From contig JAGTXK010000103.1 of NCBI GenBank assembly GCA_019096195.1, positions 434,001 through 498,000 of the forward strand: a DNA stretch of 64,000 nt. The letters run 5' to 3'. The notes beneath the pieces were generated by a model. It was not told the DNA's origin. It saw only the letters and a program-made list of their open reading frames with translations, and searched no databases. Origin of the DNA: Boletus sp. NGJ (lineage: Eukaryota; Basidiomycota; Agaricomycetes; Boletales; Boletaceae). Of this stretch, positions 55,423-60,934 are shown one piece after another; position 1 is the first letter of the stretch; each line of letters begins with the position of its first letter. A program made the position numbers and the translations under genes.

Positions 55423-55721
55423 ATGGAGTACAGTGCTGGCATAAACAACTGTTCAGCAACAAGGTGATACTGATATATTTCAAAGATGACCTTGAAAACA
55501 CATGGCCAAAAAAGTCAACATTCATCCAGATGAAGATATGACATCCTGTGGGATGTTGCATGTATGGTTAACTTTACCTTTTCAACAAAGATAGTTTAAT
55601 CTTTCATCAGGCAAAACAACAAGCATAAATGCAGTGAAATGCCAGTGTGTCAGGTGAGTGGGCAATCATGTTTGTCAGTATGTATGATTCACTATTTCCC
55701 TCTGATATGGCATGCTGCTTA
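55423..55721. other. No gene seen
   Basis: Unassigned sequence between an LTR and the left end of the Tc1-like element. Confidence 0.4.
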
Positions 55722-55827
55722 CAGCTGTTTGCAAATTTCTGTGAAAAACAAATTCTGAAAAGTTGCACCTTGAAGACAGCCAGGAAGGAACCCTGGGTGC
55801 AGCTGAGTGGGTGGCCTGCACAGCTGA
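55722..55827 (+). repeat. Left terminal inverted repeat of copy 1
   Basis: Pairs with 58,724-58,829 on the other strand. Shared blocks: GCAAAT, CTGAAAAGTTGCACCT, GACAGCCAGGAAGG, CTGAGTGGGT. About 80-85 percent identical by eye, so the two ends have diverged. Confidence 0.8.
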
Positions 55828-55833
55828 ATAAGC

Positions 55834-56930
55834 GTGTTTGTTTTGCACTCCCATGCCAGGGCCCTACCATGTCGTGCCTCCCAATGTCAAAATGTCAAAG
55901 CTCGAATTCCACTCCTGTATAATGACAACTATAGCGTTAATGATATCTGCCACATACTAGGTAACAAGAAATTGCTAGTTTATAGGATGCTCTCTTTGTA
56001 CTTGAAATATGGCACCATCACCAACCCAAGCAAATGTTCTTACATAACTGGGCACCATTGACTCCTCACCTCTGCTGACATCGCTTTCATTTCCACTGTT
56101 ATCCAGAATTGCAACACCATCTACATTGATGAGCTTTAGTGTGAACTTTGGACCAAGCATCAAAAAGTTTATAACACTTTCAAATCTTCTCTGAACACTT
56201 CAATGTCTTTCCATCATATGTAAAGTTGTTTCATGTGCAGCTGCAGAACGAAACAAAGAGATACATGTGATCTATATGAATCAGATTGCTGCTGATATGC
56301 CAGATCTGAACATGCTTCTTTTTATTGACGAAGCAGCCAAAGATAAGTGGACATTCACCCACCAATATGGGTGGTTGGAGAAGAGTGTCTGCTGCTATGT
56401 CAGCAGATGCTTTGTTTAAGAAACAAGGTTCTCAATCCTTCCTGCCATCACTCTTGATGGTATCATTGCATACAATATTATAGAAGGACCAGTTAACAGT
56501 CAGTGCTTTATGAGATTTTTTAAGAAACATGTGATATGTCTTCGTAGTTCATGTATAGTATTTACTTATCTTTTGTACAGATGCCTCTCACCAACCTGTG
56601 TCCTGATCCCCATAGCATTATCATCATGAACAATTGCCACATCCATAAGACCGAGGAGGTCCGCATGCTTATTGAAGACATGCACCATACATACATCAAT
56701 AGTACATTGTTCTTTACATAGTACTAACTACTACTAGTTTACAAGCTTATCTTCCTCTCCACCTACTCTCCTAATTATAATCTGATTGAACAAGCATTCT
56801 CAGTAATCAAGGCATACTTTCAGTGCTATCTTGACAACTTCTCAATGACCACAATTGTATGCACTTGTCAGAGCATTACTCCTGACAAAGCAAAAGGCTT
56901 TTTTTGGGTATCAGGCTACATTGTGTAGTG
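55834..56930 (+). pseudogene. Tc1/IS630-type DDE transposase of copy 1, dead
   Basis: A helix-turn-helix start (NVKARIPLLYNDNYSVNDI, then LGNKKLLVYRMLSLYLKY) is followed by LLTSADIAFISTVIQN, an alanine-rich IYMNQIAADMPDLNMLLFIDEAAKD (first catalytic Asp; quoted in two motifs, the second being LLFIDEAAKD), FSILPAITLDGIIAYNII, PLTNLCPDPHSIIIMNNCH, and YSPNYNLIEQAFSVIKAYF with the final Glu. In this family the second box is normally VLDNCSIH; here it reads IMNNCHIH, so the second Asp is replaced by Asn. One TGA interrupts before LLTSAD, and further stops and frame changes follow. It cannot be active. Confidence 0.8.
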
Positions 56931-57079
56931 AGAAATGGACCTAGTACTGTAGTTGTTAGTTGTAAAGCCTTGCAAATTACTCCTGCAATGAACATATGGT
57001 TGTTGTAACAAATTCACAGTGACATAATGAATTTATAGTGAAAATAGATTGTAAGGCTAATGATGCAGATATTATCCTA

Positions 57080-58690
57080 TTACTTGAAGAAACTATCTAA
57101 AGTGTCATTATCACCATCTTCACAAACAATAAATCCTTTTGGAACAGGAAGCCATGTCCCATGATCTATAGACTGGTACCAAAGATCATAGTCTTTTGGT
57201 CCATTGTCATCCCTAGCAATTATTGGAGATTCAGTGAAGCGGCAGCCACTGTCATCATGGTATTTCTTCTTATAAGTGATCCTCTTCTGGGGTGGATGAG
57301 TAGGTGACCTGAATTGACTCTGATCAGTGTTATTACACTTATGCTTCACATCAGGATCATTCCACCAGGTGATAGAACCCTTTTTCAAATAGTTTATATT
57401 GCCAGCTGGAATCCCAATCTCCACACCAAGTATTCTGTTGTCAATTTTGGGGAGGATGTTAGGGCCAATGTGCTGCTCCGCAAGTTTCTGCTCAAATACA
57501 GTAGCATTCTCAACATGAAGCTCTGTCTCTGCATATTTAAGAAACCATATAAGCTGGAAAGGGGACAGATTTGGAGGGGAGGTGGATCTTTTGGGGACAG
57601 AACAAATGGGCATCATTGGAGCTAGAACCATTGGAGTTGTGGCCATAGTTGGATTACAAGCTCTGGATAAAAGATTGGCTAAAGTCTAAAGAAGAATGAT
57701 AGATGTGAGTGAGTTGATGTCTGGTGCAATGTTTGAACTTGGAGATGGTGGGGGTTGTGAAGCGACTTTTTGAGCCTGTGCCTTGCATCCCAGGTGTAAA
57801 AACATCGTCTTGTTGGCAGCATTGAATGAAAGGATGTTAGATGGCATGTTTAATGTTGCCTGGCCTTCCTTCTATGGATAGATTAGATATTTTTAGTGTG
57901 AATCTACAGAGTATACTATACCAAAGCACAGGCCCAGTCAAGCACCATTGCTGAAGTAAGCAGGATAGCAGTATCCAATGGTGCAATATATATCAGATGG
58001 CCATTATCATCATCTTTGTGTATCTTTGCAAGCTTCATGTGCCATTGAGCAAGGTGCACATCTAGATCTGAAGCTGATTGGGGTGGCAAGGGCTTGTTAG
58101 AAAACATAATAGAGAATGTCCAGATTATGATAAAAAAAAACAAATACTTAGTTATCATTAGATAAACTTGACTTTTTGTCTCTAGAGTAGCTGGTTGCTT
58201 GATGCAATGGGGGTTTCTTGATATGCTTCATGTCGACCAAAATTTTCATTGCTACACCAAGGTCACTGGCACTGGCTGCATCATGAATTTTTTGGATCAT
58301 CTCTTTGTAGTATGACTCGTTATCAATGTCCATTGCTTCACTTGTGTGCTGGCTAAACAAATTGTGAGCCAGATGACCTATACACAACTGTACTAGTAGG
58401 AACAATACCTCTTTGTCTTTGCCATAGTGAACTTGAATGAGAACCATTGCTTGCTAGAGATCTTGTACAAAGTCTGACTGTGCTTCTTGAGAATACTTTC
58501 AAGGAATTCAAGATAGTTGTTCTCGTTGAGCAGGAAAAGCAATTCCTTGGTTTTGAGGGACTTCTCTTGTTGTTTGGTAGTACTCTTGCCCTTGAATGAC
58601 TGCTTGAGTGTAGAGTAGACAGTGAGGGTGACAGTAAAGGCATACTGCCTCTCAGCCGGTTGTTCAGATATACGAGTGAGGTAGTACTAG
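57080..58690 (-). pseudogene. Orphan mushroom gene with SAM-like domain, carried by the element
   Basis: On the minus strand: RISEQPAERQYAFTVTLT, KELLFLLNENNYLEFLE, WFSFKFTMAKTK, then across a 56-bp intron EAMDIDNESYYKEMIQKI, MKILVDMKHIKKPP, ASDLDVHLAQWHMKLAKI, IAPLDTAILLTSAMVLDW, FNAANKTMFLHLG, then a SAM-like stretch (FLKYAETELHVENATVF, GPNILPKIDNRILGVEIGI, LKKGSITWWNDPDVKH) and the end DDNGPKDYDLWYQSID, GTWLPVPKGFIVCEDG, stop at 57,080. I know this domain order as an abundant mushroom family without a function. Lesions: a stop after SLSNDN (about 58,149) and a TAG after TSIILL (about 57,686). It lies wholly between the TIRs and faces the transposase. Confidence 0.7.
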
Positions 58691-58723
58691 GCAAATTGAA
58701 TCAATGTGTAGCTATAGCAAGCT

Positions 58724-58829
58724 ATGCTCACACAGGCTACCCACTCAGATGTGCCTGGGGTCCCTTCCTGGCTGTCTCTGAGGTGCAACTTTTCAGAATT
58801 AGTTTTCCACAGAGATTTGCAAATAGCTG
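58724..58829 (-). repeat. Right terminal inverted repeat of copy 1
   Basis: Inverted counterpart of 55,722-55,827, ending at TA 58,830-58,831. Confidence 0.8.
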
Positions 58830-58831
58830 TA

Positions 58832-59709
58832 ATACATGACACATGCCATAGTTCATCTGCCTGGGACAAATCCCAATAATTATAGACATTGTGGGTGGTT
58901 AATCTCATGACCTGCCAACAAACCATTGCTAGAGAGACTACAAGAGAAGAGCATTGTCAGCAGATCGATGACATGTTTGGAAGCCACTAAGAGTGACAGA
59001 AACAAAAGGAGTATATAGTACACAATGTTGGTTGAGGAGGCACAGTGACTGGATATGTATCATTAATGAATACACTTGTTGAACATTTGCAAATGGGGGT
59101 ACTCATATTATGCTGGATCCTTCAGGAATAACTACTGCAGAGATGAAAGCAAGGCAGAGGGTGAGAATACTGAATGTGCACACTGGTCAAGTGACAATGG
59201 TACACTACACATAAAAATACCTGAGCTTGGCAAACATGTCAGATGACGAACCCAAGACAGTAGAAGAGAAAGAATGAGTTATCTGGAGGATGAATGAGAG
59301 ATCTGGTTGGTTTTTATACCATGAAGATTGTTCAAACCATACATATTTATATACTGTAAGGTGAAAGGATTTATTTTCAGCCTTCTGGCACAAGAAGGTG
59401 TTCCAAAGTGACATTTGTGATGGTCACTGGCAGATGTGAACCAGCTTCCTGGATTCAGATGCAATTAGTGGGGATCAGTGTAATTAGTCATACATATTTT
59501 GGTGTGGTGATTGTTGACCTTCAAGCACTACTGTACTAATTATAATAACTTAGAGTCCCTTGACTATGGTGTGAGTGCATCTCAAATTTATTCCCACCAC
59601 ATTTGCATTTCTTTGTATGCCAAGGTCCTACAGTTGTGATTGGCAAGATGCTCTCAGAGGCAAGATGAGAGCACCAGTGTAACATAATCAGTCAGAGTGT
59701 GAAATATTA
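58832..59709. other. No gene seen
   Basis: About 880 bp between the two sibling elements. Short ORFs only; no repeat match found within the window. Confidence 0.4.
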
Positions 59710-60934
59710 TAGCTGTTTTCATTTTTCTGTGGAAAGTAAAATTTGAAAAGTCATGCCTCAGAGATGGCCAGAAAAGGACCCCAGATGTAGTTGAGTGAGC
59801 TGCATCTGAGTAAGTTCATTTTCCATCATTTTCCACTGCATTTGCCACTTGTGGTCACCCTCATCAATGCCCTGCTCTGTACCTCTCAGCATCAAGGCTC
59901 AAGTACCACTTTTATATCAAGATGACTACAGCATCAATGATATTTGTTGCACATCAGGCATTAAGAAGTCGCTTGCATACAAAATACTCTCACTTGCTTG
60001 GGTGCCGTTGAGTCCTTAGCTCAACAGATGTTAGTTTCATTTCTGCCATTGTTTAATATTGCAGTACTATCTATCTCCACGAGATCCAGCATGAAATTTG
60101 GGTAAAGCATTAAAAGTTCATTACTCTTCCAACCCTTTTGCAGACTCTCCAATGTCTTTGTATCACCTGAAAGGTCATCTCTGCTCCAGCTATGGAGTGA
60201 AATGAAGAGATGTGGGTAATCTATGAATCACATTGCAGCAGATGTACCAGATCCAAATATGAATATGCTCATTTTCATTGACAAGGCTGCCAAAGATAAA
60301 TGGACATTTGCCTGTCTACATGGGCAATCAATGTTACTTGATGTGATGGGAGCTTTTCAACATGTTCCATATCAATAAAAATCTTTGTTGCCATGAGGTC
60401 ATCTGTAGCATCACAGATTTTTCAGACCATCTCTTTGTAGTCTAGCTTGTTGTTAATATCCATTGCCTCACTTGCATGCTGACTAAAAAAGTTCATGCAG
60501 TCAGGCAACTACAAACAACTCAGAGAATCATATTCCTTCATCTTTGCCATGGTAAACTTGAACAAGAACCACTACTTCTTTGAGAGCTTGTATTAAGTCT
60601 GTCCATGCTTCTCAAGGATGCTCTTCATGAATTTGACATGGTTGTTCTTATTTAATGGAAAAAGTAATTCCTTGGTTTTTATGGACTTCTCTTGTTGCTT
60701 GACAGTGCTCTTGCTCTTGGTTGACTACTTGAGTGCTGTGTAAATGGTGAGAGCAATAGTAAAAGCATACTACTTAGGCTCAATTGGCTCATTCAACATG
60801 CCAGTATGCAAAATCAAAAGTGATGTGTCAGCTACTAGAACTATGCTACTCAGCTGCATCTGGAGTCCTTTTCCAGCTGTCTCCAAGACATGACTTTTTG
60901 AATTTTGCTCTTCATGGAGAAATGAAAACAGATG
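59710..60934 (+). mobile_element. Internally deleted relative of the two-gene element (copy 2)
   Basis: The left end TAGCTGTTTTCATTTTTCTG and, inverted, the right end CATCTGTTTTCATTTCTC match each other and copy 1, with TA outside (59,708-59,709; 60,935-60,936). The left inside matches the first half of the transposase (YSINDIC-like region, STDVSFISA, AMEXNEEMWVIYESH) to about 60,330. The right inside, on the minus strand, matches the first third of the orphan gene (about 60,340-60,790). The middle, with the end of both genes, is gone. Both parts are full of stops. Confidence 0.75.

Follow-up and report, generated by a model that had tools for sequence, protein, structure and literature searches.

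Tc1/mariner elements are the textbook one-gene transposons, and the exceptions that we found in print are ciliate. The locus analysed here, positions 55722-58829 of a 64,000-nucleotide stretch of the Boletus sp. NGJ genome (contig JAGTXK010000103.1, positions 434,001 to 498,000; hereafter the window), raises the question whether a fungal element of this kind can own a second gene: a transposase gene on the plus strand and an orphan gene on the minus strand, referred to as the partner, lie tail to tail and wholly within one pair of inverted repeats. The initial annotation had proposed that the orphan is a partner or passenger of the transposase. That reading proved largely right, being supported in this genome by the linkage of the two genes, by movement of the whole unit with TA duplication, by the gene trees and by selection, and the focal element is described here as a Tc1-like element in which a second gene is conserved.

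Linkage of the two genes and movement as a unit

The home genome (32.8 Mb, 141 contigs) was searched with the last exon of the partner and with a stretch of the transposase. All 54 candidates for the partner exon and all 48 for the transposase stretch were scored, leaving 51 and 44 matches, respectively, which group into 37 loci for each gene. A convergent transposase lay less than 2 kb away at 24 of the 37 partner loci, one of the 24 being a fragment of a composite on contig C44, and a test for transposase remnants, which covered 11 loci, revealed a convergent remnant at five further fetched partner loci (C107, C113, C114:4177, C44:439301 and C56). The predicted convergent pairing was thus found at 29 or more of the 37 partner loci, compared with a chance pairing of about 0.5% per locus by our own arithmetic; the loci are not all independent, the C79 pair, C59/C127 and the C71 pair being apparent duplicates. 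Orphan genes lying mostly far from such transposases, the outcome named beforehand as speaking against the proposal, were not what we found. Among the other partner loci, C44:253304 has a transposase 329 bp off that does not converge with it, and 3.2 kb separate C44:248789 from a piece of transposase, both loci belonging to the rearranged C44 composite; the loci on C59 (785 and 787 kb) and C127 (122 and 132 kb), which fell outside the remnant test, are 4-14 kb from a transposase. Seen from the other gene, a partner match was absent within 3 kb at 12 of the 37 transposase loci, which include five deep lineages (see below) and, outside the closer check, C114:850270, C141 and C38:23801.

The copy at C22:1736211-1739252 (L020, C22:1735211-1740252) interrupts a reading frame that, judged from the frame, is a Ty3/gypsy-like pol. 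When its flanks were joined, 38 of the 40 matches listed (40 of 49 candidates scored) spanned the junction unfilled, the other two being the flanks of the C22 copy itself. Two empty sites were aligned base by base, the clearer one reading TTTAAA against TTTA[3042 bp]TAAA at the filled site, from which it follows that the moved unit includes both genes and that TA is duplicated. TA was present at all 47 readable ends, in a TTA context at 22 of 22 left ends and a TAA context at 25 of 25 right ends (duplicates and deletion forms included; two L029 rows with no readable context and three L037 rows that repeat the window sequence were left out). Ordinary Tc1 elements are not known to have so strict a TTAA context. 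In line with an element bounded by its repeats, identity between the focal element and the copies on C22, C3 and C38 was confined to 55722-58829 and the flanks were unrelated, except that the outermost left stretch of the C38 copy is displaced, its matching end lying about 1.2 kb farther on; the repeat boundaries therefore coincide with the breaks in alignment, a mismatch between the two having been the other outcome held to count against the proposal.

The repeat-start pattern TTACAGCNRTKTGCA occurred 35 times genome-wide, compared with 0 occurrences of the pattern read backwards, and other focal subfamilies depart from it, starting CAGTGGTTTCCA, CAGCAGTTTTCA, CAGCTGTTTTCA or CAGCGGTTTCCA. 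Three pairs of TTACAGCNRTKTGCA bound deletion forms of 933-936 bp in which the 5' part of each gene is retained (Table 1). The flanks show that two of these forms belong to a single inverted duplication, leaving two independent insertions, and internally deleted forms at two independent sites imply that the proteins are supplied in trans and that the ends work in trans.

Structure of the element and of its two genes

The focal element measures 3108 bp (CAG...CTG). In the window copy its arms (55719-55818 and 58733-58832) form an inverted repeat of 100 nt that is 86% complementary, and the arms of the C3 copy are 98% alike; the CAG-initial repeats with TA outside, as first annotated, were thereby confirmed to the base, and the plus-strand transposase with a convergent minus-strand gene was borne out by structures of three and four exons, respectively (Table 1). 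The two stop codons of the window copy are 151 bp apart and the genes start 131 and 158 bp inside the element ends, so that, with the convergent layout, each gene has its own copy of the same repeat upstream.

The transposase, read in the C3 copy, is 318 residues long, and its introns are short, with positions constant in divergent copies and a TACTAAC-like branch site in the second. By eye the catalytic triad is FIDEAAKD / MDNC / NPIEQ, with 35 residues from the second D to the E (DD35E). Pfam DDE_3 matched the transposase with E-values of 4e-6 and 1e-5 and was found in four of eight exon-1 rows (best E 2.4e-5), and HTH_28 was found in one of the eight (E 0.0032), all of these scoring below the curated cut-offs. 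The window copy carries a frameshift and stops, and its MNNC in place of MDNC is a further reason to consider this transposase dead.

The partner is about 476 residues long. A 10-row profile of a stretch in its last exon matched the SHD2 domain of yeast Sla1 in PDB (3IDW; E 3.6e-4, profile positions 106-159), the next match having an E-value of 0.011, and a basic stretch follows the matched domain. SHD2 of Sla1 is a SAM-type fold; SAM-like folds often self-associate. Sla1 is an actin cytoskeleton-regulatory protein, and the likeness, although the best to any solved structure for the C-terminal domain of the partner, is limited to this one domain. The earlier label 'SAM-like' thus gained the Sla1 match and found no counterpart in Pfam for the last exon. 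When the SAM-like stretch (85 window residues) was modelled from its single sequence with AlphaFold, the predicted confidence (pLDDT) was 43, and the model was not used. No relative of the partner or the transposase was detected with profiles or single proteins among viral contigs (the C65-type partner left out) or among prokaryote genome contigs. The partner family is presumably abundant in other mushrooms.

Table 1. Coordinates of the focal element, its parts and its deletion forms (window positions unless a row name is given)
Feature	Position	Strand	Remarks
Whole two-gene Tc1-like element	55722..58829	.	Arms; boundary common to other copies, flanks differ
Left terminal inverted repeat	55722..55818	+	Starts CAGCTGTTTGCAAA
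Right terminal inverted repeat	58733..58829	-	Starts, on the minus strand, CAGCTATTTGCAAA
TA target duplication, left	55720..55721	.	TTA context; mechanism seen at the empty sites of another copy
TA target duplication, right	58830..58831	.	TAA context
Transposase exon 1	55853..56533	+	HTH, first catalytic D (FIDEAAKD); decayed in window copy
Transposase exon 2	56581..56686	+	Second catalytic position: MDNC in relatives, MNNC in window copy
Transposase exon 3	56738..56928	+	PYSPxYNxIEQ with catalytic E, 35 residues after second D
Partner exon 1	58409..58671	-	Start codon is ATA in window copy
Partner exon 2	58148..58352	-	
Partner exon 3	57922..58092	-	
Partner exon 4	57080..57871	-	Encodes the SAM-like domain and the conserved C-terminus; window copy has a single in-frame TAG
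Second, internally deleted element, related subfamily	59710..60934	.	Retains both repeats and the 5' part of each gene; flanked by TA
Deletion form	L059 157-1098		Both repeats
Deletion form	L060 156-1097		Both repeats
Deletion form	L061 160-1098		Both repeats

Downstream, 880 bp separate the focal element from the second, internally deleted element of the window.

Selection, co-divergence and the role of the partner

Purifying selection acted on both genes during the spread of the element. The median ratio of nonsynonymous to synonymous substitution rates (dN/dS) was 0.22 for the partner (last exon of 17 copies; 136 pairs, 102 finite) and 0.22 for the transposase (a 140-residue stretch of 15 copies; 105 pairs, 88 finite), with higher values in close pairs (0.28-0.71), where neutral decay after insertion weighs more. 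In a frame control on six subfamily copies of the partner (15 pairs), the uncorrected ratio was 0.41 in frame, compared with 0.89 and 0.94 in the two alternative sense frames and with 0.89, 0.52 and 0.97 in the antisense frames, the middle one of which mirrors the codon positions. C-to-T or G-to-A changes made up 282 of the 426 single-copy differences in a four-copy alignment, and the window copy contains 19 CpG where 127 are expected (window-wide ratio 0.73), which fits methylation-linked transposon decay; given this pattern the dN/dS values are approximate only.

The two genes also diverged together, through about six subfamilies. Gene trees were built from the 16 of 24 rows with enough of both genes, and five of six groups were common to both: L039/L041, L021/L024, L031/L044, L017/L018/L020 and L015/L019/L023, the last with a transposase support of 84/81 only. 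The sixth group, which holds the focal element, is a clade in the partner tree and is left unresolved beside L031/L044 in the transposase tree. Across the 16 copies, distances in the partner and in the transposase were correlated (0.73, Mantel p 1e-4).

Taken together, the element is probably a two-component transposon of IS630-Tc1-mariner type whose SAM-type partner helps its own transposition, by analogy with the Myb-like partner of Harbinger. The 318-residue HTH-DDE (DD35E) transposase would cut at the CAG ends and insert at TA within TTAA. Each gene is probably driven from the inverted-repeat copy next to it, and because both starts adjoin the same repeat and the genes converge, the two repeats may act as matched promoters that keep both products in step; co-transcription, suggested earlier as a test, is inapplicable to genes on opposite strands. 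The partner, of about 476 residues, would work with the transposase in the assembly or import of the transposition complex at the long repeats, a structural role being favoured because the SAM-like domain suggests self-association.

The main rival keeps the two-gene element and assigns the partner to countering host silencing, through chromatin or DNA methylation, instead of to the transposition reaction. The heavy decay (282 of 426) and the CpG deficit (19 versus 127) make silencing a likely pressure, and proposed anti-silencing genes of the TET/JBP type on fungal DNA transposons set a precedent (PMC12730594), yet the partner looks like a SAM-like scaffold without a recognisable enzyme domain, and its last exon matches no Pfam chromatin module (exons 1-3 were outside the scan). 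We regard this explanation as unlikely, though with a real chance of being correct. A smaller chance attaches to a targeting or tethering function by which the partner would confer the strict TTAA context: every readable end (22 left, 25 right) lies in TTA or TAA, and the TA used by a Tc1-looking insertion nested in the C44 copy is not part of a TTAA (by eye, in repeat context), which is one control insertion only, whereas in Tc1 elements it is normally the transposase that selects the target.

That the second gene is cargo of no use to the element seems very improbable. It has no known function and one gene is absent from some copies, as a passenger might be, but it has the same dN/dS as the transposase, both genes recover five of the six tree groups, and a converging reading frame occupies the same place in four more deep lineages; a partner role is favoured over a passenger. 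A nested or chance neighbour, brought together with the transposase at one place, is refuted by the linkage counts (a convergent transposase at at least 29 of the 37 partner loci) and by the empty sites for the whole unit, against which stands only the rarity of two-gene Tc1 elements.

Several observations weigh against the preferred explanation, a two-component transposon with a transposition partner. No transposase was found at two fetched partner loci (C126:53910 and C114:22651), and no partner was found beside the transposases of C35 and C50 (duplicates of each other), C91 and C126:78k. Among the four copies read closely (window, C3, C22:2263637 and C38), none has both genes intact. The frame control covers the partner and not the transposase, dS is saturated in many pairs, and CpG decay biases the rates. 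Branching within L015/L019/L023 and the deeper forks differ between the two gene trees. The SAM assignment is a single profile match, Pfam giving none for the last exon of the focal partner (exons 1-3 outside the scan). Finally, homology between the partners of the deep lineages was not significant with hhalign (E 0.06-0.78) and, with hmmsearch, gave E-values above 1, like the control frames.

Deep lineages and known systems

Transposases at C82, C65:426k, C127:158k and C45:259k shared 22-33% identity with the focal transposase across the matched stretch, and each of the four faces, in the same place, at least one open reading frame of the opposite strand. A fifth transposase, at C89 (26%), is fragmented, and no facing reading frame was seen there. 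The C-terminus of the second gene in C127 and C45 (73 codons) showed a dN of 0.21 with saturated dS, a pattern absent in the two other frames. The left ends of C45 and C65 read TTA|CAGCGGTGTGCA and TTA|CAGCCGTTTGCA, the right end of C127 reads TTA|CAGCGCTGTGCA, one base off the TTACAGCNRTKTGCA pattern, and C82 gave a doubtful end candidate only. The layout, and broadly the repeat start, thus appear to be common to the deep lineages and the focal element. Read by eye, the deep partners seem to end in SAM-like domains; Pfam and PDB gave nothing significant for the deep-lineage partner pieces, the best SAM-type match being SAM_TNK (E 0.047, C65). In hhalign, short motifs of C65 and C45 were co-placed (around LTPxxxxxWAxAL and GxATLxxPNxxxFxxAN), which we do not count as proof. 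Chances are about even that these elements form a deep Tc1-like clade of mushroom-type fungi that is obligately two-component, with a fast-diverging SAM-type partner, convergent layout, CAGC starts and strict TTAA; the odds are lowered by the repeat starts, which are exact in only two of the four deep lineages and from which several focal subfamilies depart. If there is such a clade, several large 'hypothetical protein' families of mushroom genomes would be its partner genes.

The focal element resembles IS630-Tc1-mariner elements in its TA target duplication (seen at the empty sites), its terminal inverted repeats, its HTH and DDE_3-type transposase with D, D and E, and its deletion derivatives, and differs from them in its length of 3.1 kb, its conserved second gene and its strict TTAA context. 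Two other families were considered and rejected. The target duplication of PIF/Harbinger elements is 3 bp, whereas TA alone is duplicated here, and the last exon of the partner has no Myb/SANT match in Pfam (exons 1-3 outside the scan). Elements of the piggyBac family duplicate the full TTAA, whereas the present ends read TTA|CAG and CTG|TAA with duplication of TA alone.

Tc1-mariner elements, those of fungi among them, are described as generally 1.3-2.4 kb long with a single open reading frame (PMC4188875), a description that the focal element does not fit. A single gene is nevertheless typical and not strictly defining, since ciliate members break the rule: TBE and Tec elements combine a Tc1/mariner transposase with further open reading frames, and the TBE accessory frames are under purifying selection, which their authors find surprising for Tc1/mariner (PMC12242761, PMC7325037). 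TBE elements are thus like the focal element in having selected accessory genes, and differ in what these encode (a 57-kDa zinc-finger/kinase, and a 22-kDa protein in which no domains are predicted) and in their ANT flanks, whereas Tec elements carry a site-specific recombinase; both have ciliate, not fungal, hosts. PIF/Harbinger elements are two-gene DNA transposons as well, with another transposase family and a Myb/SANT domain in the partner; their Myb-like partner is far more divergent than the transposase, and the gene trees match globally with some exceptions (PMC9179366). Accessory genes on fungal DNA transposons are also represented by TET/JBP, found on KDZ, Plavaka, EnSpm, IS3EU and other elements, and here the accessory gene is a dioxygenase; the main text of that paper contains none of the words 'mariner', 'Tc1' and 'IS630' (PMC12730594). 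Tc1-mariner elements of Pleurotus are the subject of PMC4905642, and the main text of a Laccaria paper (PMC3411680) contains neither 'Tc1' nor 'mariner'. Among the matches listed from the open literature, with subscription papers and Repbase outside the search, no fungal Tc1-like element with such a second gene was found.

A second gene kept as strictly as the transposase in a fungal lineage suggests that Tc1 chemistry can become partner-dependent, and the two-gene lineage offers a system for asking what the partner does. The focal element also offers a Tc1-type transposon whose target is narrow (TTAA). Should other mushrooms show the same two-gene arrangement, common 'hypothetical protein' families of theirs would be transposon genes, affecting gene counts and annotation.

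Some copies are rearranged. In the composite L014 (C44:246832-255938), pieces of the focal element stand in inverted order, and one of them has a Tc1-looking element (by eye, with CAGTG ends) nested in it. Inverted duplications hold several elements as assembled, namely L026 (C89:10000-15700), L015/L016 (C79) and L032/L033 (C50/C35), and one such stretch is 99% its own reverse complement.

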